Virus record (IMG/VR): IMGVR_UViG_3300046517_002069
Location: 1-52,414 of that record
Length of the DNA stretch: 52,414 nt
Direction: 5' to 3' (one strand)
Origin: a virus
Positions 1,417-51,947 of the stretch are shown here, in pieces. Made by a program: the position numbers and the translations under genes. Under the pieces are notes generated by a model. It was not told where the DNA came from, searched no databases, and worked only from the letters and a program-made list of their open reading frames with translations. Every line of letters starts with the position of its first letter. Within the stretch, counting starts at the first letter, position 1.

Positions 1417-1722
1417 TTAGGTTTCTCCAGTGGAGGATATGGTTTCAATCGCTTCAGCGCGCCGCCACGGCTTCAAGAAATTCCAAATCGCCTTGGTCAT
1501 CTGCAGCTCGATTTGTTGGCGCGGGATGTTGAGTGACTCTTGGCGGCAGGCATCGCCGGCGAGCTCGTCGAGTTTTCGCAGGACGAGCGCGTAGAGGTCG
1601 GGCTGCAGGCTCGAGAAGGTTTGTTGGTCCCAGGGCAGCAGGTTCAGCAGCGAGCAGTCCAGTTGCGCGAGGGTGGTGGCGCGGTGGTGCCAGTGGTCGC
1701 GGGGTGTCAGTTGAGCGCTCAT
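1417..1722 (-). CDS. Hypothetical phage protein, 101 aa
   Basis: The product (MSAQLTPRDHWHHRATTL...) is predicted mainly helical and has no signal peptide or membrane segment. Its ATG overlaps the stop of the helicase gene by 4 bases, and it ends 1 base before the next start, so translation is probably coupled across all three. I cannot assign a family. Its position immediately behind a DnaB-like helicase makes a small replication accessory role possible (inference). Confidence 0.65.
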   Translation of the reverse strand: MSAQLTPRDHWHHRATTLAQLDCSLLNLLPWDQQTFSSLQPDLYALVLRKLDELAGDACRQESLNIPRQQIELQMTKAIWNFLKPWRRAEAIETISSTGET

Positions 1723-2636
1723 TGCGCGAACAGCCCCGCCGGCATGTAGACCGTCGGTGAGTCGAACTTGCCGAGCTTCAACTGGCGCGACTCTTTGTCG
1801 TAATACAGCTTCAGGCCGCCAATCCAGTTTATATCACCGCGCTGCTTCCAACAGGTCAGAAGCGCATCGAATTCCTCCTCGTGCTTGCGCTCAAGCGTCA
1901 TGACGAGATCGGCCTGGGCAACGATGTCCTGCGCACCGCGGATGTCATACATGTCCATGGGCATGCGCGAGTTCTGCGTCTTGCGCGGATGTACGACTAG
2001 GTGGATGTGCGCGCGGGAGGTGCGCGCTAAGCGTCCTAGCATGTTACCCATCTCGCGCTGACCATCGTAGTCGTCAATGGCCAGATCCAAGCGCATCAGC
2101 GAGTCAATCACGACGTGGGTGAGTTCGAACTTATCGACAGCGTGTCGAATGATCCCCATCAGCAACGTCGGCTCAATCAACTCGCTGGAATCAAACACAA
2201 ACAATTTGCCGTCCCAAAGATCCAAGCACGACTCGATGTGCGTCGGGTTGGGAGAACGCAGGCTTGTCGCCGTGCAGATGAACTCGCGCCAGACTTCCTC
2301 GGGTTGCTCCTCGAGCGAGATGAACAACGCGCGGTGATGGTTGGCAATCGCGTGCACCATGAGTTGGCGCAGAAAAGCCGTCTTGCCGCTGAAGCTCGGG
2401 CCGGACCACACGGTCACCTTGCCCGGCATGAAGCGGATGTACTCGTTCGCGCCCACCCATGGCAACGGCAACCCATCCGAGAGCGGCGAGCGGAATCGCG
2501 TGATCAGCGCCTTCGCGGTGGGATGCTGCGAGCCCATGATGCGCGAATCGCCCTGCTGCCGACCTAACTCCAACAGCCAGTCGTGATCATCGCGCGTGAA
2601 GGTGACCGCGGTTCCAGATGCGCCTTCTAACTTCAC
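1719..2636 (-). CDS. DnaB/Twinkle-type RecA-fold helicase ATPase
   Basis: This 305-residue ATPase carries a Walker A box GPSFSGKT at about residues 79-86, an acidic pair in LFISLEEQ at 109-110, and a Walker B strand HVVIDS at about 174-179. It ends with the HPRK...IRGAQDIVAQADLV section typical of DnaB-family C-terminal domains (arginine-finger and DNA-loop region). The usual DnaB N-terminal domain is absent. Residues 1-60 are a short unrelated leader, so this is a core-only helicase. It probably unwinds phage DNA at the fork together with the DUF1376 protein upstream. It is coupled by 4-base overlaps to both neighbours. A RadA-like recombinase is the alternative. Confidence 0.82.
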   Translation of the reverse strand: MKLEGASGTAVTFTRDDHDWLLELGRQQGDSRIMGSQHPTAKALITRFRSPLSDGLPLPWVGANEYIRFMPGKVTVWSGPSFSGKTAFLRQLMVHAIANHHRALFISLEEQPEEVWREFICTATSLRSPNPTHIESCLDLWDGKLFVFDSSELIEPTLLMGIIRHAVDKFELTHVVIDSLMRLDLAIDDYDGQREMGNMLGRLARTSRAHIHLVVHPRKTQNSRMPMDMYDIRGAQDIVAQADLVMTLERKHEEEFDALLTCWKQRGDINWIGGLKLYYDKESRQLKLGKFDSPTVYMPAGLFAQ

Positions 2637-2944
2637 ATCAACACCCGTTCCGCGCCTTCGCCGCGCCAGTAGATCGAAAACAGATTCGGTGCGGCTGAGG
2701 CGATCGACAGTGCAACTTCCGCCGTGCGCTCACTGCGATGCGCCAACAAGATCACGTCCAGGCCCGCAATGAACACCGTCTGCTCAGGCAACGGCAATCC
2801 CAGCGCATAGGCGCCGGAGGCGACCAAGTTGTAACGTTGGTTCTCGTGATCGGTGATCCAGACAGCCGCCGATGGCCGCTGGCCGCGACGACGCGCTTGC
2901 CCGAGTTGAATCCACTCAGGGGTTGACGATCGGTAGGCCCGCAT
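2633..2944 (-). CDS. Hypothetical phage protein, 103 aa
   Basis: The product (MRAYRSSTPEWIQLGQ...) has a basic N-terminus and a hydrophobic middle (FIAGLDVILLAHR), which looks like a small alpha/beta fold rather than a membrane segment. It overlaps the end of the DUF1376 gene by 29 bases and the helicase start by 4. I do not recognise it. The position between initiator and helicase suggests a small replication partner, perhaps a loader, but no loader motif is visible. Confidence 0.6.
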   Translation of the reverse strand: MRAYRSSTPEWIQLGQARRRGQRPSAAVWITDHENQRYNLVASGAYALGLPLPEQTVFIAGLDVILLAHRSERTAEVALSIASAAPNLFSIYWRGEGAERVLM

Positions 2945-3806
2945 GAGTGCGACCCTCCTTCGCTGGTTTGGCGGCTTCCGCTCCCCAAGTCGGTTCCGCG
3001 ATGCGTTTGAACTTCAGCCGGATGATTTTCTCGATGAAAGCGCGCTGCTGCTCCGGCGTGCCCTTCTTCGCCAGGAAACGGGCGTTCATCAGCCGCACGT
3101 GCGCCTTCAGATCCTCGCCCTCCTGGGTGCGGTACTCGATCCAGGTCTCGTGCGCTTGCACATCGCACTGCGGTTCGTCCCGCTTCCACGTGTGCAGCGG
3201 GTCGTCGGGATTGTCAGCGGGCTTCCCTTTCACTCCCCGCGATGGTTCGCTTTCGTCGCCATCCCCGGGCTGGCCTTCCAGGGGCTCGCCGGCTTCCTCG
3301 CGCGCGCACACGCTCTGAGGGTGTGGTTCTGGCTTAGGCTTCTGGCTTAGGATCTGGAGAGGGTTTTCTGCGGGTTTCGAAAACGCCTGTTTTTCAAACC
3401 CGGAACTAACCCGCTGGGTTTCATCCGGGTTATCACCATTAAAACCCGACTGGTTTCCGCCAGGGTTACCGTTCGGGTTCTTCTTTGGCCTACCGCCGCG
3501 CTTCCCACGCTCTCGATTCTCCTGGGCCATCTGCTCCCACTTCTCAATCTCCTCGTCGGCGCGCTGGTTGTGTCGGAGCCCATCGTCTTCCAGTAGGAAG
3601 AATTCATCAGCAACGGCGTTCACGGCGCCCTGCTCGAGCTTCGTTGTTGCTCGGCACAGCCGATGCAGGGATTCCATCGCGCCCGGCAAGGGGCGTCGAC
3701 GCGAATAGTAGTGATCGAGCAGCACCGTATAGGCACCGTGCTCAGCCAGGGACAGATGGCTCGTGTCCCGTTGATAGTCGCCCATGTAGCGCTTGTAATA
3801 GTCCAC
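2916..3806 (-). CDS. DUF1376 (YdaU-like) replication protein
   Basis: Residues 1-90 (YYKRYMGDYQRDTSHLSLAE, then YTVLLDHYYSRRRPLP) match the DUF1376 domain found in phage and prophage replication modules, often beside a helicase or helicase loader, where it is thought to act in initiation. The middle is basic and Asn/Gly/Pro-rich, probably a flexible linker. The C-terminal 80 residues are helical with many charges. Translation starts at a GTG directly after the stop of the methyltransferase-like gene (TAG then GTG). The role in origin recognition is inferred from family context. Confidence 0.78.
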   Translation of the reverse strand: MDYYKRYMGDYQRDTSHLSLAEHGAYTVLLDHYYSRRRPLPGAMESLHRLCRATTKLEQGAVNAVADEFFLLEDDGLRHNQRADEEIEKWEQMAQENRERGKRGGRPKKNPNGNPGGNQSGFNGDNPDETQRVSSGFEKQAFSKPAENPLQILSQKPKPEPHPQSVCAREEAGEPLEGQPGDGDESEPSRGVKGKPADNPDDPLHTWKRDEPQCDVQAHETWIEYRTQEGEDLKAHVRLMNARFLAKKGTPEQQRAFIEKIIRLKFKRIAEPTWGAEAAKPAKEGRTHAGLPIVNP

Positions 3807-4511
3807 CTATCGAAGCCCCCGCTCGATCTCCATCCGCTCAATCCTAGCGGGCGATCGCCGTGCAATCAGGCCAGCCATCACACGAAACGCGCTCACGCGC
3901 GTGTCGAAATTTGGCGTCGTAATTCCAGTCTGGTAGGCCGCTTCAATAGCTTCCTCGAGCGCGCCATCACCATCGGGGGCGCGAGTCTTCTCCCAAATGT
4001 GCTCCTCCAGATGACAGTCCTCACACAGACAGATCAGATCCTTGTCCGCGTATTCCCAAGGCAACGCGCCATTGCGATAAAGCTTGTGATAAAGAAAAAA
4101 GCTACCAAAGTTCCAACGAGCTCGCCCTACCCACGGCTGCGCCCCGCGTACGTTCTCAACCACCATCGGGATATGCCGCCCCGCCGCCTCAGAAGCTTCG
4201 CGCTGGATGCGAAAGCACGCGTCAAATAACGAGTTATCCGGCGGCGGCAGGGCTTTGGCGCGCTTCCAGGGCATCGCACGATAGCTGTACGCCTGGCAGG
4301 GCGGGGAGGCGACTATCAGGGCAGCGTCTTTGAACTGCCGTCCATGGAGCGTCATGACATCCTGCAGTACCAGTTGCGCGGGGTAGCGGTGCTCGCCGTA
4401 GACATGTTGTTCGATGTCGAAGCCGATTACGTCGTAATCTTCGGCGAGCAGTCCCTCGGTCCAGCCGCCGAGGCCAGCAAAAAGATCAATGGCAAGCGGC
4501 TTAAGGCTCAT
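3807..4511 (-). CDS. Truncated C5-cytosine methyltransferase fused to an HNH-like tail
   Basis: I start at the ATG at 4511, which overlaps the previous stop (ATGA). Residues 1-133 are the N-terminal half of a small phage C5-cytosine methyltransferase: SAM motif I DLFAGLGG (9-16), catalytic motif IV SPPCQ (69-73, Cys72) and motif VI VVENV (117-121). The expected motif VIII, target-recognition domain and motifs IX-X are missing. Instead residues 141-171 read YHKLYRNGALPWEYADKDL then CLCEDCHLEEH, which looks like the metal-binding half of an HNH nuclease (H142, CxxCH 163-167, H171). The gene seems an in-frame chimera. Methylation may be lost, so the present function is uncertain. Confidence 0.7.
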   Translation of the reverse strand: MSLKPLAIDLFAGLGGWTEGLLAEDYDVIGFDIEQHVYGEHRYPAQLVLQDVMTLHGRQFKDAALIVASPPCQAYSYRAMPWKRAKALPPPDNSLFDACFRIQREASEAAGRHIPMVVENVRGAQPWVGRARWNFGSFFLYHKLYRNGALPWEYADKDLICLCEDCHLEEHIWEKTRAPDGDGALEEAIEAAYQTGITTPNFDTRVSAFRVMAGLIARRSPARIERMEIERGLR

Positions 4512-4687
4512 GCGCCCGGCCCCCACCACATCCACCCCAACCACCGCCCCAACGCCATCACCTCCAGCCACGCGAAATACACCAGCGCCGCGACGCCCAG
4601 CAGTGCCACGCAAGCGAGCAGCGCCAGGCCGACTTGGCCGGGGGTGAGTAGCAGGCGGGTTTGGCGGGGGAGGCGCGGGGACTTCAC
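4508..4687 (-). CDS. Small single-pass membrane protein, 59 aa
   Basis: GTG start at 4687 overlaps the upstream stop (GTGA), and its own stop overlaps the methyltransferase ATG. The product begins MKSPRLPRQTRLLLTPGQ, with a basic N-terminus. It then has one long hydrophobic helix (VGLALLACVALLGVAALVYF) and a Trp-rich end. Overlaps on both sides argue that it is translated. No family recognised. Confidence 0.6.
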   Translation of the reverse strand: MKSPRLPRQTRLLLTPGQVGLALLACVALLGVAALVYFAWLEVMALGRWLGWMWWGPGA

Positions 4688-4881
4688 GGTGTCTCCGCAG
4701 GCACATCAGGATTGCGCAGATCACACCCGCTGCAGTCCATCTTCTTGCCTTGCTCCAGCGCGCACACCAGCCCCCAGCACAGCAGCATGTTGGCATGCTC
4801 CTGATAGGTCTGCCGCGAGCAACACTTGGGAATTCCTGCCGTGTAATCGGCTTCGGTGATGGATCGCTTTGGCTCGCTCAC
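4684..4881 (-). CDS. Small Cys-rich protein, 65 aa
   Basis: Translation most likely starts at the GTG at 4881 (MSEPKRSITEADYTAG), preceded by GAAGGGGGT and overlapping the upstream stop (GTGA). A longer frame exists but lacks this coupling. The product has six cysteines (KCCSR, LCWGLVC, DCSGC), a spacing consistent with a small metal-binding fold. No family is recognised. It belongs to a run of tiny genes at the start of the left arm. Confidence 0.62.
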   Translation of the reverse strand: MSEPKRSITEADYTAGIPKCCSRQTYQEHANMLLCWGLVCALEQGKKMDCSGCDLRNPDVPAETP

Positions 4882-4988
4882 AGCACCCCCTTCGCATGCA
4901 ACTCCCACGCAACCAGCCCAATCGCCACGAAAATCACAATACCGAGGGCGATGATGCCGGCCGACATGGTGTCGTCGTTGAGCTTCAT
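4878..4988 (-). CDS. Tiny membrane protein, 36 aa
   Basis: The frame MKLNDDTMSAGIIALG... codes for a short polar start, one hydrophobic helix (GIIALGIVIFVAIGLVAW) and a short C-terminus. Its ATG overlaps the stop of the 4985-5167 gene (ATGA) and its stop overlaps the next GTG. These overlaps are the main evidence for such a small gene. Confidence 0.5.
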   Translation of the reverse strand: MKLNDDTMSAGIIALGIVIFVAIGLVAWELHAKGVL

Positions 4989-5167
4989 GCGCACAGCCGT
5001 CCCAACGAGACGAGAGCGGAGCATCGCTGGCAGAACCATTCAACTCCGTTCCGCTCGCGCAGTAGCTGAAACCTAGTCGTTTCGACAGAATGCTTCGCAA
5101 AGCGTAACGGCAGCCCGCACAGGGCGTAAGATTCTGATCGCTTCACGTGTGTTTTACCGTTGCTCAC
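4985..5167 (-). CDS. Zinc-ribbon-like small protein, 60 aa
   Basis: The product (MSNGKTHVKRSESYALCGLP...) has two CxxC-type knuckles, CGLPLRF near residue 17 preceded by the YALC element and FCQRC near 45, a usual layout for a small zinc ribbon. The N-terminus is basic. Its start overlaps the stop of the gene upstream by 4 bases and its stop overlaps the tiny membrane gene. The partner molecule is unknown; nucleic-acid or protein binding is possible. Confidence 0.6.
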   Translation of the reverse strand: MSNGKTHVKRSESYALCGLPLRFAKHSVETTRFQLLRERNGVEWFCQRCSALVSLGRLCA

Positions 5168-5388
5168 GCCGCCCCCTCATATTCCCGCATCGCCTGTTGG
5201 TCCACCGCGCCCGTATGCGGATTCTTGAACCAGTACTGCGGATGCTCGTAGGCGAGAGCACGCAGCTCGAGCACCGTCATCTGTTTGGTCCCCGCGCGTC
5301 GAGCAGCATCGCACAGGAAGATGCCGAGCCAGCATGAGGCGCGCGAGCAGTGGGCGCAGACGGTGATGGGGCGCGAGAGGATGCTCAT
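5164..5388 (-). CDS. Cys-containing small protein, 74 aa
   Basis: The N-terminal 30 residues hold four cysteines (VCAHCSRASCWLGIFLC), probably a metal site. The rest (VLELRALAYEHPQYWFKNPH) is helical with aromatic residues. It is joined by 4-base overlaps to the genes on both sides. No family recognised. It is in the early part of the leftward arm, where phages often keep small host-interaction genes. Confidence 0.6.
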   Translation of the reverse strand: MSILSRPITVCAHCSRASCWLGIFLCDAARRAGTKQMTVLELRALAYEHPQYWFKNPHTGAVDQQAMREYEGAA

Positions 5389-5683: not shown

Positions 5684-5832
5684 GTTATGTTTGTGTTGCG
5701 CCGTGCGAGCGGCGGTGAGTTAGCGGGTCAGAGGGGGTACCTCCCGTGAGGCAGACCAAGGTCCCGTTCCGCCATGTTATGACGCATTGCGCCAACCGGC
5801 TGTGTGCGCTGTGTCATGCTCTTCGACATAAC
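5684..5832. promoter_or_regulatory. Spacer with three GTTATG elements
   Basis: The 173-base gap between the left-arm genes and the small regulator gene holds GTTATG at 5684-5689 and 5776-5781, and the inverted form CATAAC at 5827-5832. The last two have matching flanks (TGTTATG-C on each strand) and face each other. The first copy lies in GTTATGTTTGTG, which recurs exactly at 18193-18204. I found no convincing sigma-70 promoter here. The elements could be regulator or host-factor sites, or chance. Confidence 0.3.
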
Positions 5833-5838
5833 AAGCAA

Positions 5839-6057
5839 CTAGGCGGAAGCGCGGCTGAGCGGCGGCTTTGAGCCTTCAGCAGTCAAACTGCCGAGCAACT
5901 CCGACAATGCCTTCCATGTGTCGTAACCGGGATTAGCAGTCTTGCCCGTAGCAATCCGATTGATGGTCGACTGCGAAACGGTCGGTATCCGCTTCGCAAT
6001 TTCGTACTCGGAAAGCCCGAATTCTTTGAGTCGGTCGATGATCTGCTGTGCATCCAT
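5839..6057 (-). CDS. XRE/Cro-type HTH regulator, 72 aa
   Basis: The product (MDAQQIIDRLKEFGLSEYEI...) is a five-helix XRE-type DNA-binding domain. LSEYEIAKRIPTVSQSTINR at about residues 15-34 forms the helix-turn-helix and GKTANPGYDTWKALSELLG the following helices. I choose the ATG at 6057 because the -10 box of the leftward promoter (TATACT at 6071-6066) puts the transcript start only about 2 bases before it, and no ribosome site is present. The mRNA is thus probably leaderless, as for lambda cI from PRM. It is the first gene of the leftward arm and so resembles a Cro or early repressor acting on the 17-base operators next to it. Confidence 0.78.
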   Translation of the reverse strand: MDAQQIIDRLKEFGLSEYEIAKRIPTVSQSTINRIATGKTANPGYDTWKALSELLGSLTAEGSKPPLSRASA

Positions 6058-6065
6058 GGGCGCCG

Positions 6066-6104
6066 AGTATATGCGTTTACGGGACGACTGCAACCCGTCA
6101 ATGC
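6066..6104 (-). promoter_or_regulatory. Leftward early promoter/operator (PL-like)
   Basis: On the minus strand a -35 TTGCAG and a -10 TATACT (6071-6066) are separated by 16 bases. The -35 lies in a dyad GACGG-N7-TCGTC. The 39-base block matches the block at 6667-6705 at 31 positions, the first 14 being identical (GCATTGACGGGTTG). A second dyad CCGTC-N5-GACGG (6095-6109) overlaps it on the side of the rightward regulator gene. Confidence 0.72.
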
Positions 6105-6111
6105 GACGGTT

Positions 6112-6140
6112 TTGACCGAGTCTAGGGCGTTCCCGACACT
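6112..6140 (+). promoter_or_regulatory. Weak rightward promoter of the central regulator
   Basis: TTGACC at 6112-6117 and GACACT at 6135-6140 are 17 bases apart. The -35 abuts the dyad CCGTC-N5-GACGG, so the regulators could control it. The predicted start lies at or next to the ATG at 6147, which has no ribosome site, implying a leaderless message. The -10 is poor, as expected for a maintenance-type promoter that needs activation. Confidence 0.4.
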
Positions 6141-6146
6141 GATCGC

Positions 6147-6620
6147 ATGAAAAAAACGCCCAAAGAGATCCTGGAATGGCTTTGCACGGACCAGGCGGAA
6201 TTCTGGAAGAGGGACGGTGCCGTCAATATTTATGCGCTGCACCAAGCCCTCAGCTGCTGGGGCAAGGGAAAAGGAAAGACAAAGGTCCCGTCGCAGTCCA
6301 CACTAGCGCGGCTGTATGGCGGGGAATCGACCGAATTTAAAACCAAGACAGCGGAAGCACTGTCAGAGTTCTTTGGCGTCCCCACTCCGATTATCCGCGG
6401 TGAATTGCTGTGGAATCCAGAAGAGGTCTGGGGCATGGATATCACGCTGACCGAAGTGCGGCTGCTGTACCAGTTGAGACAGCTCGAGCCAGACCAACGT
6501 CTCGCGATCCTGAAGTTAGTCGAAGAGATGCTGCCGCCGGGTGCCGAAAAAGCCCCTGTGCTGCTCTCCCCGCGCCGTACTCCGCTGTTGCCGCCGCCCA
6601 AGTTTCCCGAAAAGCACTGA
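6147..6620 (+). CDS. CI-like HTH regulator without a cleavage domain
   Basis: The 157-residue protein (MKKTPKEILEWLCTDQ...) has an HTH-like segment at about 45-75 (TKVPSQSTLARLYGGE, then KTAEALSEFFGV), an acidic helical stretch with repeated Leu (VRLLYQLRQLEPDQRLAILK) that may dimerise, and a Pro-rich tail. No S24/LexA-type peptidase motif is present, so RecA-driven self-cleavage is unlikely. The gene lies between two near-identical divergent promoter/operator blocks, the place of cI in lambda, and is therefore the best candidate for the master repressor. Which of this and the 5839-6057 product is repressor and which is Cro is inference. Confidence 0.7.
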   Translation: MKKTPKEILEWLCTDQAEFWKRDGAVNIYALHQALSCWGKGKGKTKVPSQSTLARLYGGESTEFKTKTAEALSEFFGVPTPIIRGELLWNPEEVWGMDITLTEVRLLYQLRQLEPDQRLAILKLVEEMLPPGAEKAPVLLSPRRTPLLPPPKFPEKH

Positions 6621-6666
6621 TAATCCAACGTCTGCGTACGGTCGCTGCGCGTTCGACAAAATATAT

Positions 6667-6705
6667 GCATTGACGGGTTGACACCGTCCCATATGTGCAT
6701 ATACT
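6667..6705 (+). promoter_or_regulatory. Rightward early promoter/operator (PR-like)
   Basis: A near-consensus sigma-70 promoter: -35 TTGACA at 6678-6683 and -10 TATACT at 6700-6705, spacing 16. The -35 sits inside the dyad GACGG-N7-CCGTC (6672-6688). The block is a diverged copy of the leftward promoter block at 6066-6104. It would drive the long rightward operon beginning at 6730. Confidence 0.82.
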
Positions 6706-6729
6706 GCCTCCCATCGACCCGGAGGCCCC

Positions 6730-6864
6730 TTGAACACTCACTCTTCCCCGACTTGCCCCTGCCCCGCCTGCGCCACCCAGGTCACCCTGGTCCGCAGCAC
6801 CCGCGCGAACCGCTTCGCCAAGCTGGGCGCGCTGATCGTGGCGCTGTATGGAGCGCCATCGTGA
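6730..6864 (+). CDS. Small Cys-rich protein, 44 aa, TTG start
   Basis: A strong GGAGG at 6721-6725 precedes TTG at 6730, the first translatable start after the rightward promoter. The product MNTHSSPTCPCPACATQV... has CPCPAC near the N-terminus, possibly half a zinc ribbon, then a basic and hydrophobic segment (RFAKLGALIVALYG). Its stop overlaps the GTG of the next gene. As first gene of the early operon it might be a regulator such as an antiterminator, but nothing in the sequence shows this. Confidence 0.55.
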   Translation: MNTHSSPTCPCPACATQVTLVRSTRANRFAKLGALIVALYGAPS

Positions 6865-7304
6865 GCCGCCACGACTACATCCACCCCGCGCTCCGGCCAC
6901 TCGTCAACGCCGTGGCCGGTACAACGGCACAACTGGCCTATCGTGACCTTCTGAAGCGGCTGGCCGAGTCAGCGCCCGAGGGAGGCTACAGCTCGCTGCG
7001 CGCGTTGCCCGAATTGTCGCTGGAAGACTTGGCCGCGACGCTCGCTTTTTACCCCACCGCGTTCATGGACTCGGTGGCCGACGCGGATCCAGACCTCGGC
7101 ACGCTATGCATTGAGCGCCTCAATGAGAGCCGCCAGAAGGCCAGCGACCGGTATACGCACATCGGACTGTTGGTTGTTGGGTACGTGCGCAATTACGTGA
7201 AGGGCTTGGTTCTGCGCGACGTGCTGCTCGAATGCGAGCGGTTGCGCGAGGCTGAGGCGATTGAACGTGATAGTAATCCGCATGATGACGGAGCGCTGTC
7301 ATGA
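6861..7304 (+). CDS. Hypothetical helical protein, 147 aa
   Basis: Starts at GTG 6861, overlapping the stop before it. The product (MSRHDYIHPALRPLVNAV...) is mainly helical: residues 20-110 contain amphipathic helices (LAYRDLLKRLAES, LSLEDLAATLAFYP), and the C-terminus is charged (RLREAEAIERD). There is no signal or membrane segment. I do not recognise it. It is the first sizeable gene under the rightward promoter. Confidence 0.62.
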   Translation: MSRHDYIHPALRPLVNAVAGTTAQLAYRDLLKRLAESAPEGGYSSLRALPELSLEDLAATLAFYPTAFMDSVADADPDLGTLCIERLNESRQKASDRYTHIGLLVVGYVRNYVKGLVLRDVLLECERLREAEAIERDSNPHDDGALS

Positions 7305-10763: not shown

Positions 10764-10927
10764 AGGTCCTACTGTCATGTAAAGGCTACACCGACCGTCG
10801 CGGCCCGCGTGAGCTGGAGGCGGCCAGGGCGCTGGAGCAGGCGCGTGCGGACAAGGCGCTGGAGGATTTGTGGCGGCAGAGGGCATCGCAGTCGATTGAG
10901 TTGCGGCGGATTCGGAGGCGGGCGTGA
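10760..10927 (+). CDS. Small basic helical protein, 55 aa
   Basis: The product (MKVLLSCKGYTDRRGPRELE...) has a short beta start and then a highly charged helix rich in Ala, Glu and Arg to the end. It overlaps both neighbours (ATGA start, GTGA end). Such a peptide may bind nucleic acid or a protein. No family is known to me. Confidence 0.5.
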   Translation: MKVLLSCKGYTDRRGPRELEAARALEQARADKALEDLWRQRASQSIELRRIRRRA

Positions 10928-11802
10928 ACGCTGCTCGAAAACAGCTTGAGCCATTGCCGGCCGCACGCATTCTCGACGTGACCGAGGACGAGTATTTTGC
11001 GGACCCGTGTCCAACGCCCTCGCTCAGTCAGAGCGTCGCGCACACGATCGTCAAGGAGTCGCCGCTGCACGGTTGGTTGCAACATCCGCGGCTGGGTGCG
11101 CATCGGGAAGAATCCACGGACGCGCTCGACGAGGGTACGATCCTGCACAAGCTGATCCTGGGTAAGGGCGCGGCTATCGCGAAAATCGAGTTCGATGATT
11201 TCCGCACCAAGCTGGCGCGTGAGGCGCGAGACGAGGCCATCGCCAACGGGCAGGTGCCCATCATTGCTCACAAACACGACGCGATACTGGCAGCCGCAGA
11301 GAAGCTGCGCGGCAACTGCGCGGCACTGGGGTACGAATTCAAAGGCGAGTCCGAAGTCGCCATTGAATGGTGGGCGCGTGGCACTAACCGCCCCATCATT
11401 TGCCGCAGTCGCATCGACCACTTGTTTCTCGACCAGGGCATTGCGTTCGACGTCAAGAAGACTCGCAACGCGAACCCGAACTATCTGCGCCGCAACTTCG
11501 TCGAGTTGGGCTACGACATCCAGTACGCCGCGTACACCCGCGCCATCGCGGCGCTGAAGCCGGAACTCGAGGGCCGCACGGACCTGATCTTTCTTTTCAT
11601 GGAGATGTCGCCGCCGTACTCGGTCGTTCCCGCACGGCCCGACGGCGCCTTGCGTGAAATCGGCGCCTCGCGCTGGTCGCGTGCCGTCCATCTATGGGAG
11701 CAGTGCTTCGATCGCCGTCAATGGCCGGGCTACTGCGACAGCTTGGTGACGCTTGAAGCGACACCGTGGGTCATCGAACAAGAACTTGGGAGCCAAGGAT
11801 AA
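10924..11802 (+). CDS. RecE/ExoVIII-like PD-(D/E)XK exonuclease (DUF3799)
   Basis: The 292-residue protein matches the C-terminal nuclease domain of RecE (DUF3799 class): PSLSQSVAHTIVKESPLH at 32-49, GTILHKLIL with His75, acidic CRSRIDHLF (Asp165), DVKKT (Asp176, Lys178) and GYDIQYAAY (Gln200). These are the metal-binding and catalytic elements of this PD-(D/E)XK group. It should degrade duplex DNA 5' to 3', leaving a 3' single strand for annealing. The start is GTG in a GTGA overlap and its stop overlaps the ATG of the Sak4-like gene, so the two products are made together. Confidence 0.85.
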   Translation: MNAARKQLEPLPAARILDVTEDEYFADPCPTPSLSQSVAHTIVKESPLHGWLQHPRLGAHREESTDALDEGTILHKLILGKGAAIAKIEFDDFRTKLAREARDEAIANGQVPIIAHKHDAILAAAEKLRGNCAALGYEFKGESEVAIEWWARGTNRPIICRSRIDHLFLDQGIAFDVKKTRNANPNYLRRNFVELGYDIQYAAYTRAIAALKPELEGRTDLIFLFMEMSPPYSVVPARPDGALREIGASRWSRAVHLWEQCFDRRQWPGYCDSLVTLEATPWVIEQELGSQG

Positions 11803-12959
11803 TGAACGCAGTAGTGCAACGAACTTTTGAAGCGAAGCCGGCCGTCCGTGAAGCGGTTGGATTGTTGATTGGGCTTGTGGGTCCATCCAGTAGTGGCAAG
11901 ACGTATAGCGCGCTGCGCATCGCATCTGGCATTCAGCGCGTGGTCGGTGGCGAGATCGATGTCATCGACACTGAGAACGGTCGCGCGCTCTATTACGCCG
12001 ATCGCTTCAAATTCAATCACGTGCGTTTCGGCGCGCCGTTCTCACCGCTCGACTACCTGGAGGCCGTTCGCTTTTGCGCGCGTCGCGGGGCGAAGACCGT
12101 CGTCATTGATTCCGCCTCACATGAACACGAAGGCTCGGGAGGCGTACTCGAATGGCATACCGAGGAGACGCAGCGACTCGCGAAAGCCTGGGGCGTGCGC
12201 GAGGAAAAGGCGCAACTCGCAGCCTGGGGCCCGCCCAAGCAGGCGCGTCGCAAATTCATCAACGAACTGCTGCAACTCAACATCAATCTCGTGTTGACGT
12301 TCCGCGCCAAAGAGAAATTGAAGATGGTCAAGGGGAAGGACCCGGTTGAACTCGGTTGGCAGCCAATCTGCGGCGACGAATTCATGTACGAGATGGTGCT
12401 GCAGTTACTGCTGAAGCCCGGCTCAAATGGTGTGCCGAGTTGGAATCCCGACCACGAAGGTGAGCGGTCGATCATCAAATGCCCGGCGCAATTCACCAGT
12501 ATTTTCGCAGGCGAAGCGCGCCAGATCGACGAGGATCTCGGCAAGGCGCTGGCCGAGTGGGCCATGGGCGGCGCGAAGCCGGCGCCTGAATTGGATGCGC
12601 TGATCGCCGACTATGCGAAGTGCCTGACGCAGGAGGAATTCAAGGAGATCGAGAAGCGCCGCGCGGCGATTTGGTCGAAGCCCGCGCCCGCCGGCTACAA
12701 GCCCCGTGTCAAGGAAGCGGCTGACGCGGCAGGCAAGCGGATTTCCGAGGCGCCCGCGGCAACGACCGGCCAGTCTCCCGTGAAGCACGACGCAACGAGC
12801 GCCATCGTGGCCATTCGCGCCGCGAAATCACTGAAGGAACTCGATGCGGCTTACGAGCCAATCGTGTTGGGGCTGGTCGATGCCGATGGTGTCGTGCCAC
12901 CGGAAGTTGAAAATGCGTTCGCAGACTGGCGTGCACATTTGGAAGCGGAGGAATCATGA
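11802..12959 (+). CDS. RecA-fold ATPase, AAA_24/Sak4-like, putative annealing protein
   Basis: Starts at ATG 11802 (TAATG overlap, AAGGA site). Residues 20-240 form a RecA core: Walker A GLVGPSSSGKT (about 24-34), Walker B KTVVIDSAS (about 97-105) and a conserved WGPPKQARR / LVLTFRAKEK section. This matches AAA_24 phage ATPases, the family of Sak4 single-strand annealing proteins. A C-terminal addition of about 140 residues, partly low in complexity, has no clear match. As no RecT, Redbeta or Erf gene is seen, this is the likely strand-annealing partner of the RecE-like nuclease (inference). Confidence 0.8.
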   Translation: MNAVVQRTFEAKPAVREAVGLLIGLVGPSSSGKTYSALRIASGIQRVVGGEIDVIDTENGRALYYADRFKFNHVRFGAPFSPLDYLEAVRFCARRGAKTVVIDSASHEHEGSGGVLEWHTEETQRLAKAWGVREEKAQLAAWGPPKQARRKFINELLQLNINLVLTFRAKEKLKMVKGKDPVELGWQPICGDEFMYEMVLQLLLKPGSNGVPSWNPDHEGERSIIKCPAQFTSIFAGEARQIDEDLGKALAEWAMGGAKPAPELDALIADYAKCLTQEEFKEIEKRRAAIWSKPAPAGYKPRVKEAADAAGKRISEAPAATTGQSPVKHDATSAIVAIRAAKSLKELDAAYEPIVLGLVDADGVVPPEVENAFADWRAHLEAEES

Positions 12960-16073: not shown

Positions 16074-16254
16074 GCGACCCATGAGGCGGATTAATACTCT
16101 GAAAACGACTCTCGTCGAGACGCGGGATGGAAAGCTCATGTTTCAGACCGACCCGCCGCAAAAGAAGGTCAAGGAGATCGAAGTGCGCATCCTTCGCGAG
16201 AAGGATTACCAGCATCTGATCCACATCGCGCGCAACGCTCCTGGAAAATCATGA
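16066..16254 (+). CDS. Hypothetical small protein, 62 aa
   Basis: Starts at GTG 16066, inside the end of the gene before it, with GGAG upstream; an internal ATG at 16081 lacks a ribosome site. The product (MSKRPMRRINTLKTTLVETR...) is basic and ends with KKVKEIEVRILREKDYQHLI, likely a beta-alpha segment. Unknown function. Confidence 0.52.
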   Translation: MSKRPMRRINTLKTTLVETRDGKLMFQTDPPQKKVKEIEVRILREKDYQHLIHIARNAPGKS

Positions 16255-16823
16255 CCGCCCCAACCGAAGCGTACCCTTTGACCTGGCCCATGGGTCGCCC
16301 GCGTGCCAAATACTCCGAGAGTGCACGCTTCATGACGGGGCTGGGCCGCGCAATCGACAACGTGCGCCGCCAAGTTGAGTTGCTCGGCGGCCAGCGGCTG
16401 GTGATCTCCAGCAACCTGCCTCTGCGACGTGATGGCTTCCCCATGGCGCGCGGCGGGTACATCGGTGACAAGGGCGTCGCGGTCTACTTCGATCTGAAGA
16501 AGAAGCCCATGTGTTTCGCGTGCGATCGCTGGGACAAGGTGGAAGATAACATGCAGGCCATCGCCAAGACGATTGAGGCCCTGCGAGGCGTGGAACGTTG
16601 GGGCTCGGGGCAGATGGTGGAGCAGGCATTCACCGGGTTTGTTGCCCTGCCCGCCCCTGAACAGCCATGGCAGGTTTTGGGTCTGTCCAGCCACGCGACG
16701 CGCGAGCAGATCGAAGCGGCTTATCGCAAACTGGCATCCGAGCATCACCCTGATAAGGGCGGCGACTCGCAGCACATGGCGCGAATCAATGCAGCGCGCG
16801 ATGCGCTGTTGGAGGGGTTGTGA
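16251..16823 (+). CDS. J-domain (DnaJ-like) phage protein, 190 aa
   Basis: Residues 138-190 form a J domain, with PWQVLGLSSHATREQIEAAY, the HPD signature at 166-168 followed by KGGD, and MARINAARDALLEGL. It should stimulate the ATPase of host DnaK. Residues 1-130 belong to a domain often joined to J domains in phages (YPLTWPMGRPRAK, then VAVYFDLKKKPMCFACDRWD); its activity is unknown. The protein may direct host chaperones to phage complexes, as lambda O/P replication needs DnaJ/K (inference). ATGA overlap with the gene before. Confidence 0.83.
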   Translation: MTAPTEAYPLTWPMGRPRAKYSESARFMTGLGRAIDNVRRQVELLGGQRLVISSNLPLRRDGFPMARGGYIGDKGVAVYFDLKKKPMCFACDRWDKVEDNMQAIAKTIEALRGVERWGSGQMVEQAFTGFVALPAPEQPWQVLGLSSHATREQIEAAYRKLASEHHPDKGGDSQHMARINAARDALLEGL

Positions 16824-20481: not shown

Positions 20482-20603
20482 ACGGTGAGGGCTTTGCCTA
20501 TGCGTGTTGGTGGCATCTGAGGTGGCCGCACTGGGCTGCTGATACAGAGGGTCTGTCTCTCGTCTGTAATGGGCATTGGCTATGGAGGCACGGTCCGCGA
20601 TGA
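20478..20603 (+). CDS. Small Trp-rich protein, 41 aa
   Basis: GTG start overlapping the previous stop; its own stop overlaps the methyltransferase ATG. The product (MNGEGFAYACWWHLRWPHWA...) has seven Trp in 41 residues and two Cys. The coupling into the methyltransferase gene suggests that it is translated. Confidence 0.46.
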   Translation: MNGEGFAYACWWHLRWPHWAADTEGLSLVCNGHWLWRHGPR

Positions 20604-22156
20604 GCACGCTCCTGGCCGATCCGAGCGACGAAATCACCGTAGACAACTTTGCGGGCGGTGGCGGCGCCTCCTACGGCATTGAGTGCGGACTCGGCCGTCA
20701 CGTTGACTTCGCCATTAACCACGACGCCGAAGCCGTCGCTATGCACCGCATTAACCACCCGAACACGACGCATCTTTGCGAGAGCGTTTGGGACGTGGAC
20801 CCGCGCAAGCTCGTCGGTCGCAATCAGGTGGGACTAGGATGGTTCTCTCCCGATTGCACTTACCACTCCAAGGCTCGTGGCGGCAAGCCCTTCCGAGACC
20901 GCAACATCGCGCGCCGCCGTCGCGGACTAGCCTGGCTCATTCCGCGCTGGATCAAGGCCGTGCGGCCGCGCGTGATCATGATGGAGAACGTCGAGGAGTT
21001 CGCTGATTGGGGTCCGCTGCTGCCGAGTGGCGTTCCGGACCCCGCCAAGCGTGGGCTGACCTTCCGGCGCTGGCATCGCGAGATCGAGAACCTGGGTTAT
21101 CAGATCGACATGCGCGAGCTGCGGGCCATGCGCTACGGCGCTCCAACGACACGCAAGCGGCTGTTCGTGATCGCCCGCTGTGATCGCCAGGAGATCGTGT
21201 TCCCGGAGGCTACGCATGGACATGAGCGCGGCCTGCAGCCCTATCGAACCGCGGCCGAGTGCATCGACTGGTCCATCCCGTGTCCTTCGATCTTCACGCG
21301 CGACAGACCATTGGCTGAAGCGACCATGCGCCGGATCGCGCGCGGGGTCATGCGATACGTGGTGAACAACCCGCAACCGTTCCTCGTAACCATGCGGGGC
21401 ACCAGCGAAGCTCATATCGATGCGAGCGCTCATTCAGTCCATGGGCCACTCGGCGTCATTAGCGCCCAAGGAACTCACCATGCTCTGGTTACGCCGTTCC
21501 TGACCGAGCATGCGAACGCATCGACACAACGTAACTTCCGCGCAGATGAGCCACTGCGGACCCAGTACGCTAACGTCAAAGGCGGTCACTTCGCCCTTGT
21601 TGCGCCGACGCTCATTAACACGCGCAACGGCGAGCGCGAGGGTCAAGCGCCACGGGTGAGAAATATCCTCGAGCCCTACCCCACTGTGACCGCAGCAGGC
21701 AGCCAAGGCGCTGTTGTAGCGGCCTTTCTAGCCAAGCACTACGGCGGCAACTACACCGGTCCAGGAATCGGGATGCGAGAGCCGCTTGACGCGATCACCA
21801 CGGTCGATCACCACGCGCTCGTACATGCCTTCCTGCTGAAGTACTACGGCACCGAGCAAGACCCGCGGCTCGAACGCCCATTGGATACGGTGACCACGAA
21901 AGATCGATTCGGGCTGGTGATGGTCCATGGCGAGCCGTACCGGATTGCGGACATCGGCATGCGAATGCTGGCGCCGCGCGAGCTCTACCGGGCACAGAGC
22001 TTCCCCGATTCGTACATCATCGATCCAGCATACGAGGGCAAACCGATGACCAAGACATCACAGGTTCGGATGTGCGGAAATTCTGTTTGCCCAGTTGTTG
22101 CAGAGGCGTTGGTTCGAGCGAACGTCGTCGAGCAGCGCCAGGGGATTGCAGCATGA
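20600..22156 (+). CDS. C5-cytosine DNA methyltransferase, SPDC type
   Basis: Residues 12-195 form the catalytic core: motif I VDNFAGGGGA (SAM binding), motif IV GWFSPDCTYHSKA with the catalytic Cys86 in SPDC instead of the usual SPPCQ, motif VI MMENVEEF (Glu129) and motif VIII RKRLFVIAR. Residues 265-455, the target-recognition region, hold a loose repeat in which P-L-x-T-V/I-T is followed by ALVxAFLxKYYG-like text. The end has the LAPRELYRAQSFPDSYII and MCGNSVCPVVAEAL motifs IX-X. At 518 residues it seems complete and solitary; no cognate nuclease is adjacent. Likely roles are protection from host restriction or packaging marks. Confidence 0.85.
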   Translation: MSTLLADPSDEITVDNFAGGGGASYGIECGLGRHVDFAINHDAEAVAMHRINHPNTTHLCESVWDVDPRKLVGRNQVGLGWFSPDCTYHSKARGGKPFRDRNIARRRRGLAWLIPRWIKAVRPRVIMMENVEEFADWGPLLPSGVPDPAKRGLTFRRWHREIENLGYQIDMRELRAMRYGAPTTRKRLFVIARCDRQEIVFPEATHGHERGLQPYRTAAECIDWSIPCPSIFTRDRPLAEATMRRIARGVMRYVVNNPQPFLVTMRGTSEAHIDASAHSVHGPLGVISAQGTHHALVTPFLTEHANASTQRNFRADEPLRTQYANVKGGHFALVAPTLINTRNGEREGQAPRVRNILEPYPTVTAAGSQGAVVAAFLAKHYGGNYTGPGIGMREPLDAITTVDHHALVHAFLLKYYGTEQDPRLERPLDTVTTKDRFGLVMVHGEPYRIADIGMRMLAPRELYRAQSFPDSYIIDPAYEGKPMTKTSQVRMCGNSVCPVVAEALVRANVVEQRQGIAA

Positions 22157-49898: not shown

Positions 49899-51947
49899 TC
49901 ACCACTGAGTGGTCCAGTTTCGGCCCGGCAGCCGTTGACGAAGCTTCGGCGTGGCCGCGGGTGGGCGTTGCGCGGGCGGGGTAATAGGTCCCTCAGCCGT
50001 CACGGACTCCGCTACGGGCTGGCCGTTCGTCCGCGCCGCAGCCTTGACGCGCCGGTGAAAACCGAGCGACTGCGCCATCGCGACATTGATCGCTTCGCAG
50101 TCGAGGAAATGGTTCTCGGCGCGGATTTTTACCCAGGTCGCAAGCCCTGACGGCTTCGGCACGCGCGCTTCGGCAGTCAACTGCATGCAGTAGTCATCCG
50201 TCACATCGGACGGCACCCAGAAGCGGCGTGGCTGCTCGGGCGCCACAATCAAGGCGCTCTGCACCCAACTCTTGAAGTAGTCGCTGTCGATGTGCCACAA
50301 CTGCAGTCCCTGCTTATGCACCTGGCCGCGGAACGTCACATCGATCAGTGAGGGCTGTAGCGGCTTGGTCAGCCGGTCGCGGCCCTTGGTCGGTAGTGCC
50401 CGGCGATGCTGCAGACAGAAGTCATAAATCAGGTTGTCCGGCCGGCGCCACTTGTCGCCCGGGCGATAACCCGAATCGATACCCATGCGGCGAATCCGTA
50501 GCCCCTTCACGCCCTCCGCTGCGCCATATTCACGCTCGAGCAACTGCTCGAGCTCCATCCAGGCCTGCGGCTCGGACGTGTCGCCCCACAGATCGCCGTA
50601 GTCCACGAGCCACGACTCCATGCCGTAGCCCCAGCCGCGCACCGCGTACACCAGGCGGCTCTTCTGCACGTCCACGCCGCAGGTCAAGGCTTTGATGCCG
50701 GCCGGAATCTGGCCCTGTGCGTAGGCTCCAGCGCAGGCTCGGACGGCCGTCGCCGGGGGCGCATCCCCGCGGAAGGCATAGAGTTCGCCGAACCCCGTGT
50801 TGATGACGACGCGGATGCGCTCCTGGTCGCCACTGTTCAGCGCGCGCAAGTAATCGGCCGCCCGGTCGCCAAAGCTCTTCCAGGGCGACAGCAGGCCCGA
50901 TATCCAGAAGCTGGCCGTATCCGAGTCCGGCGGCTCGCCGACGACCAGCCCGCCCACCACCTTCTGCCCGGGCGCGAGATAGCGGCCCGCCGCATTCATG
51001 GCGATTTTCTGCGCGTCCTCGATGTGACTGCCGCAGCTCGGGCAGATCAGCCGCGCCGCCTTCTTCGCGACCTTGGCCGAGCAGCTCTTACCCGTGGCAT
51101 CATCCTTGGGCCACCACAGATGCCGCAGCCGGGGCACGAAGTAGTCCACGCAGTGCGGACACGGCACGGCCCATTCGTGGCGCGTACCCTCCTGCCACAG
51201 TCGCCAGATGGGGCTGAGCACATCTTTCGATTCGGCCACCTTCCAGTGCTCTATTCCGGTTTCCGGGTGACGCTCCACGTCAACGTTGCCCTCGGTCGGG
51301 GTCGAGGTCGCTATTGCCCGGCCGCGTGCGTAGTTCGAGTTGCGCGCCTCGGCCAGAGTGAGCGCATCGCCCTCGCCCGGGATCGGCTCCATACGATCGA
51401 ACTCGTCGACCAGCACGATCTCGGCCGTTTGGGACGCGAGCTCTGTGGCCGAGCCTGCCCAGGCGAGCCGTAAACTCACGCCGGCCACGGTCTTGGCGAG
51501 ACCCTGTGATTTCCTCGAGCGGTCCGTCTTGGCCCACAGGGACGGCGCCGACTTCAGCATCGCGGTCAATTGCGGGTTGATAACCGTGCTGACGTTGTTC
51601 TTCGTCGGGCCCACATACAGCACGGGCCCCGGCGAATCATCGAGCTTGTGGCCGATGATATTGAGCAGGCCGCCGGTCTTGCCCATCTGCGAGCCGCAGA
51701 CGATCGATGCGCGTCGATACTCCTCGAGCGCCCGATAGATCGGCGGCATGTAGGGCGTGCGCGAACTCCTCCACGGCCCCGGCTCAGGCGTCCCGATCGG
51801 GAGCACCCGGCAGGCATCAGCCCACTGTGCGGCTGTTCTGTCGGGGGGCGGGCGTGCTATCGCGGCTCCCGACTGGCAAATCCCCCTTAACGCCAGCGAG
51901 AGCTTCAAGTCGCTCGGCAAACTGCCCCCGTAATGCGCGGCATTCAT
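49899..51947 (-). CDS. Terminase large subunit, lambda gpA type, 682 aa
   Basis: ATPase motor: Walker A GSQMGKT (85-91), Walker B IVLVDEFDRM (177-186), and a coupling SATSTP-like AIATSTPTEG (211-220). Two Cys pairs, CPHC (263-266) and CPSC (302-305), suggest a zinc site. The nuclease domain starts with CGVDVQKSRL (Asp426), then DYGDLWGD and MGIDSGYRP. Such gpA-type enzymes cut concatemers, usually at cos ends, and drive DNA into the head. The start overlaps the small subunit by 131 bases; a TTG at 51908 is a weaker alternative. Confidence 0.88.
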   Translation of the reverse strand: MNAAHYGGSLPSDLKLSLALRGICQSGAAIARPPPDRTAAQWADACRVLPIGTPEPGPWRSSRTPYMPPIYRALEEYRRASIVCGSQMGKTGGLLNIIGHKLDDSPGPVLYVGPTKNNVSTVINPQLTAMLKSAPSLWAKTDRSRKSQGLAKTVAGVSLRLAWAGSATELASQTAEIVLVDEFDRMEPIPGEGDALTLAEARNSNYARGRAIATSTPTEGNVDVERHPETGIEHWKVAESKDVLSPIWRLWQEGTRHEWAVPCPHCVDYFVPRLRHLWWPKDDATGKSCSAKVAKKAARLICPSCGSHIEDAQKIAMNAAGRYLAPGQKVVGGLVVGEPPDSDTASFWISGLLSPWKSFGDRAADYLRALNSGDQERIRVVINTGFGELYAFRGDAPPATAVRACAGAYAQGQIPAGIKALTCGVDVQKSRLVYAVRGWGYGMESWLVDYGDLWGDTSEPQAWMELEQLLEREYGAAEGVKGLRIRRMGIDSGYRPGDKWRRPDNLIYDFCLQHRRALPTKGRDRLTKPLQPSLIDVTFRGQVHKQGLQLWHIDSDYFKSWVQSALIVAPEQPRRFWVPSDVTDDYCMQLTAEARVPKPSGLATWVKIRAENHFLDCEAINVAMAQSLGFHRRVKAAARTNGQPVAESVTAEGPITPPAQRPPAATPKLRQRLPGRNWTTQW

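Follow-up and report, generated by a model that had tools for sequence, protein, structure and literature searches.

A mirrored lambda-type immunity region with a putative non-cleavable repressor and a Cro-like gene in a soil bacterial virus

The IMG/VR virus contig IMGVR_UViG_3300046517_002069, a soil bacterial virus whose entire 52,414 bp are referred to here as the window, holds a single gene, encoding a 157-aa regulator, between two outward-facing promoters. This raises the question of what kind of switch the locus may be: which protein would keep the promoters off, at which DNA sites, and how that hold would be released. The first-pass annotation had read the locus as a lambda-like immunity region reduced to one gene between duplicated promoter/operators, and had put its regulator forward as a candidate for a new repressor family. 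From the analysis below we regard the locus as very likely a lysis-lysogeny switch on the lambda plan in mirror orientation, in which the 157-aa regulator would act as the prophage repressor of both outward promoters and would be opposed by a Cro-like protein (Table 1).

Table 1. Features of the immunity region and of its two arms in the window
Feature	Position	Strand	Remarks
DnaB-like helicase/ATPase	1719-2636	-	leftward arm
DUF1376 primosomal protein	2916-3806	-	leftward arm
C5 DNA methylase	3807-4556	-	leftward arm, cro/replication operon
Cro-like gene, 72 aa, HTH_3	5839-6057	-	first gene, leftward arm
Left promoter/operator block	6066-6104	-	-35 TTGCAG 6088-6093, -10 TATACT 6066-6071
18-bp core, left, CGGGTTGCAGTCGTCCCG	6080-6097	-	relatives-only matrix 23.9, second in window
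Third half-site-like element GCGACG	6103-6108	+	GSGACG in five phages; 44 nt upstream of regulator ATG in 5/5
Candidate weak PRM-like promoter TTGACC-N17-GACACT	6112-6140	+	inferred; expected start at regulator ATG
Regulator, 157 aa	6147-6620	+	HTH 1-88, linker, helical hairpin 101-128, Pro-rich tail
Right promoter/operator footprint ATATATGCA...TGCATATACTG	6661-6706	+	-35 TTGACA 6678-6683, -10 TATACT 6700-6705
Outer element TATATGCA	6662-6669	+	right operator; mirror TGCATATA at 6696-6703
18-bp core, right, CGGGTTGACACCGTCCCA	6674-6691	+	relatives-only matrix 25.1, first in window
First ORF, rightward arm	6730-6864	+	TTG start; GGAGG at 6721-6725
Exonuclease VIII-like recombination gene	10924-11802	+	rightward arm
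AAA_24/Sak4-like recombination gene	11766-12959	+	rightward arm

Layout of the immunity region and of the record

The duplicated promoter blocks described in the first-pass annotation were reproduced in full: read outward, positions 6066-6104 on the minus strand and 6667-6705 on the plus strand agree at 31 of 39 bases, are identical over the opening 14 and end in TATACT, against a best inverted 39-mer match of 28 in 60 dinucleotide shuffles of positions 5700-6900. The right promoter (TTGACA-N16-TATACT, 6678-6705, plus strand) fits the sigma-70 consensus at 11 of 12 positions; the left one (TTGCAG-N16-TATACT, 6093-6066, minus strand), with the same -10 box and a poorer -35, falls under the threshold of the sigma-70 scan.

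Judged from gene order, the immunity region follows the lambda plan in mirror image, with PR, cro and replication on one side and PL and recombination on the other. As in lambda, early promoters with related operators point outward on either side of the putative repressor gene, the Cro-like gene is the first of the operon leading to the replication genes, and the recombination operon lies opposite; the regulator being the only gene between the duplicated promoter/operators, in the cI position, the lambda-like layout proposed earlier stands. The window departs from lambda in its mirror orientation in this record, in having no rex genes between the promoters, in a repressor candidate that lacks a cleavage domain, in an operator composed of an 18-bp core with outer TGCATATA, and in the number of operators, there being one strong core match per promoter and a partial third half-site (6103-6108), whereas lambda has three operators in tandem at each promoter. 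The Cro-like gene lies directly outside the left promoter, and this is therefore not a one-gene switch: the phrase "reduced to one gene" is right for the inter-promoter interval but not for the region, which reads as a mirrored two-repressor (CI-like plus Cro-like) immunity region of ordinary type.

The distance from the TATACT of the left block to the cro ATG is 6-8 nt in all five phages that carry the locus (the window and the four relatives described below), and the operator-to-ATG spacing is constant among them. As, in addition, neither cro nor the regulator has a clear Shine-Dalgarno sequence ahead of its start, leaderless or nearly leaderless messages are suggested for both genes; for the regulator this would agree with a PRM transcript that lacks a leader, as in lambda.

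Elsewhere in the record, the structural genes occupy the minus strand from 34.4 to 52 kb, and no integrase, serine recombinase or protelomerase was found in the 52,414-bp window. The terminase large subunit (49899-51947, minus strand) is closest to those of Vibrio phage VP882 (42%) and Halomonas phage phiHAP-1 (40%), both plasmid-prophage telomere phages. The phage carries two C5 methylase matches, the one in the leftward arm being the second; the other, a C5 cytosine methyltransferase of 526 aa (20576-22156, plus strand), has a match to PHROG 116 that stretches across about 500 residues for 290 positions of the profile, which suggests that roughly 200 residues are inserted within the coding sequence. 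A phage protein encoded at 16251-16823 (plus strand) has a C-terminal DnaJ domain.

The 157-aa regulator and its Cro-like partner

The regulator matches no family in Pfam, PHROG or NCBIfam, and these searches recognised no peptidase domain in it. Its AlphaFold model (mean pLDDT 73.9) comprises an HTH domain at about 90, a disordered linker, two helices (101-111 and 115-128) and a disordered tail, the hairpin of residues 101-128 being modelled with moderate confidence (about 70) after a low-confidence linker; four diverged rows gave a pLDDT of 74, three near-identical rows 42. In place of an S24 domain, the C-terminus of this 157-aa protein is thus modelled as a helical hairpin followed by a disordered tail, and the earlier claim that it lacks a LexA-type cleavage domain is borne out by both the library searches and the model.

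The best structural match is the N-terminal domain of TP901-1 CI (Z 10.2, rmsd 2.2 A, 80 of 80 residues aligned), and N-terminal domains of TP901-1 CI take the first four places (Z 9.2-10.2), clearly ahead of the next, unrelated chain at 7.8, although mid-range values may mean a common fold only. Foldseek searches of PDB and BFVD gave no match at E <= 0.001 (5a7l appeared at a weak 0.04), no TP901-1 CI chain came up in the phmmer/profile search, and identity in the structural alignment is about 14%; its profile hits in PDB, designed or repeat proteins, were disregarded. At the sequence level, the proposal of a new repressor family is a fair one, neither this family of regulators nor the operator being present in the libraries searched, but the HTH domain is predicted to have an ordinary XRE/lambda-repressor fold, closest to TP901-1 CI, and the architecture is well known. 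The predicted succession of an HTH domain, a flexible linker, a hairpin of two helices and a tail is that of TP901-1 CI, and by analogy with that protein the hairpin may serve as the dimeriser. The regulator is most likely a CI-type non-cleavable repressor paired with Cro.

The 72-aa partner matches Pfam HTH_3 (E 9.8e-8; 32.4 bits against a gathering cut-off of 23) and a PHROG transcriptional regulator (1.3e-11), and has homologues in the equivalent position in four related viruses (L002, L003, L008 and L013). In a profile comparison, regulator residues 46-78 align with Cro residues 25-57 (E 3.9e-6), and the two proteins have similar SQST recognition helices. Because the SQST motif is common in an HTH fold of this kind, the similarity of these regions is only suggestive of shared sites.

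A conserved operator and its occurrence in related viruses

Scanning IMG/VR with the regulator protein identified two contigs, L002 and L003, with 90% identical regulators and a Cro-like gene at the left of the regulator. The rightward side carries RecT in L003 and ERF in L002, and the left side of L002 a replication-type HTH_36 gene; integrase-family matches on the right side, above the Pfam cut-off in L003 and below it, at the contig end, in L002, point to a temperate lifestyle.

On alignment with the relatives' DNA, an 18-bp core (YGGGTTG-N4-YRTCCCR) proves to be what is conserved; at each of the outward promoters it overlaps the -35. In the five phages the right operator reads ATATATGCA-N-TGA-YGGGTTGAC-NN-C-N-TCCCR-N4-TGCATATACTG, and the left operator shares its core and its -10 side. 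The first-pass annotation had placed each -35 in a 17-bp dyad, GACGG-N7-(C/T)CGTC, and had named loss of the dyads from relatives as a refutation of its reading. Mismatch-free copies do occur at 6083-6099 and 6672-6688 and nowhere else in the window, but in L002 and L003 the dyad is broken at the right operator (GACGG-N7-TCATC) and altered at the left. What is kept in the four relatives is the 18-bp core and not the exact dyad, so that an operator signal passes the proposed test while the dyad as such fails it. A further dyad at 6095-6109 was likewise abandoned as a conserved signal, just its GSGACG half being retained among relatives, and the weak regulator promoter of the same annotation has a candidate that is kept in L002 and L003 but cannot be recognised in L008 or L013.

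The specificity of the operator was assessed with a matrix to which only the four relatives contributed sites, eight in all, the window sites being left out. The two window sites nevertheless rank first and second (52.8 and 50.9), with the next independent site at 2.9, and the core alone gives the scores in Table 1, against 12.0 for the remainder of the window and 15.8 for a single shuffled one. An operator-only pattern derived from the DNA alignment (TATATGCR-N4-CGGG-N10-CCCR), run over 2.9 million IMG/VR contigs, returned three contigs, L002, L003 and the new L008, all three with the regulator; L008, found by the operator pattern alone, has a 46% identical regulator, both operators and the layout of the window. 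L013, which also has the full layout, was reached both by a Cro-profile scan and by a looser operator pattern; twelve contigs matched once by the looser pattern, without the regulator, were taken as chance. The regulator and Cro-like pair with both operators is accordingly present in L002, L003, L008 and L013, but L002 and L003 are near-identical at the locus and therefore represent, with the others, about three independent lineages besides the window, not four. No match to the regulator was obtained by tblastn against 50,697 phage records, nor any relative in two genome-contig scans; against plasmids, the window regulator had no tblastn match and a diverged family member one weak partial match.

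In L008 the first gene past the right promoter (5130-5366, plus strand) encodes a third small HTH protein, HTH_37-like and just under the cut-off, which is absent from the equivalent place in the window. In other phages, L004 and L005 (about 4450-5210), Cro-like relatives (38%) face a different HTH regulator, which looks unrelated, is about 200 aa long and shows no obvious cleavage domain. This suggests that phages exchange the gene in the cI position.

The outer elements of the right operator bear on how the two proteins might divide the DNA between them. TATATGCA and its mirror TGCATATA lie symmetrically, each exactly 4 bp from one end of the core, are invariant in the five phages beyond what a -10 box needs, and are the only two copies of this 8-mer in the window. 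In TP901-1, the MOR sites adjoin each CI half-site (PMC7250872), and it is to TP901-1 CI that the regulator HTH domain is nearest; these points make conceivable, though to us doubtful, the main rival reading, a TP901-1 CI/MOR-type composite switch, in which one HTH protein would bind the CGGG core and the other TGCATATA and GSGACG, forming a joint complex rather than competing. Against it, the left operator lacks the far-side TATATGCA, having GSGACG in its place, and the similar SQST helices of the two proteins favour shared sites. With the same reserve, one may envisage an undescribed non-cleavable repressor family with a composite operator, its core read by one regulator and its symmetric TGCATATA flanks by the partner or a second dimer. 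Inspection by eye revealed no -35 for a possible divergent promoter within the far-side TATATGCA.

It appears improbable that the 157-aa protein activates the early promoters, or serves them as an accessory regulator, with the 72-aa HTH_3 protein as the sole repressor: no library calls the regulator a repressor and the HTH_3 gene does match repressor families, but conserved cores over both -35s suit repression, the regulator combines the cI position with a repressor-like domain plan, and the HTH_3 gene is itself the first gene of a promoter that needs to be kept off. Finally, that the two blocks are merely a duplicated strong promoter, devoid of operator function, is very hard to sustain: the -35 and -10 boxes do lie inside the blocks, but most of the invariant bases (GGG, CCC, the GCA before the -10, and TATATGCA upstream of the -35) fall outside the hexamers, persist where other intergenic sequence is unalignable, and occur only beside the regulator/Cro-like pair.

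A proposed switch and its known counterparts

In the mirrored lambda-type switch that we favour, a regulator dimer, joined by its C-terminal helical hairpin, would sit on the 18-bp core over both -35s and shut off two operons, the cro/replication one to the left and the recombination/early one to the right. The Cro-like protein would be the first leftward product and would oppose the regulator on that same DNA, probably through repression of the promoter from which the regulator is itself transcribed. As the regulator has no S24 or other peptidase domain, induction would not follow the lambda-type self-cleavage route, and might depend instead on an antirepressor, on proteolysis or on Cro/MOR-like antagonism.

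Several known systems offer precedents for parts of this scheme. TP901-1 resembles the window in its short partner HTH protein and in the extra elements beside the core half-sites, and MOR provides a precedent for induction without self-cleavage (PMC7250872); it is built, however, on one divergent promoter pair with a distal operator inside mor (PMC4941734, PMC7250872), whereas the window has a second outward promoter beyond the repressor gene, and the operator sequences differ. The Gifsy GfoR/GtgR proteins, a Salmonella family, are small phage repressors unable to self-cleave and are induced by an antirepressor (PMC3121763); they are comparable to the regulator in their non-cleavability, and none of the window's genes was identified as an antirepressor. 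The immB regions of the telomere phages phiKO2 and N15 likewise pair a prophage repressor with Cro, with different operator use (PMC4997575), and as CB and Cro of phiKO2 bind different operators (PMC4997575), shared binding by both window proteins is not to be assumed. The window resembles the telomere phages in its terminase, closest to VP882 and phiHAP-1, but differs from phiKO2 and N15 in having no protelomerase match and in its regulators.

The analysis provides a regulator family unrecognised by the searched libraries with a name, a predicted binding site and a testable role, together with an operator signature specific enough to find more members by DNA pattern alone. Should the composite operator prove true, it would combine the two-promoter layout of lambda with a joint-complex mechanism like that of TP901-1. 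On the reading that we prefer, the locus would be a lambda-style two-promoter switch run by a non-cleavable, TP901-1-like repressor, with an induction route other than RecA-driven self-cleavage.
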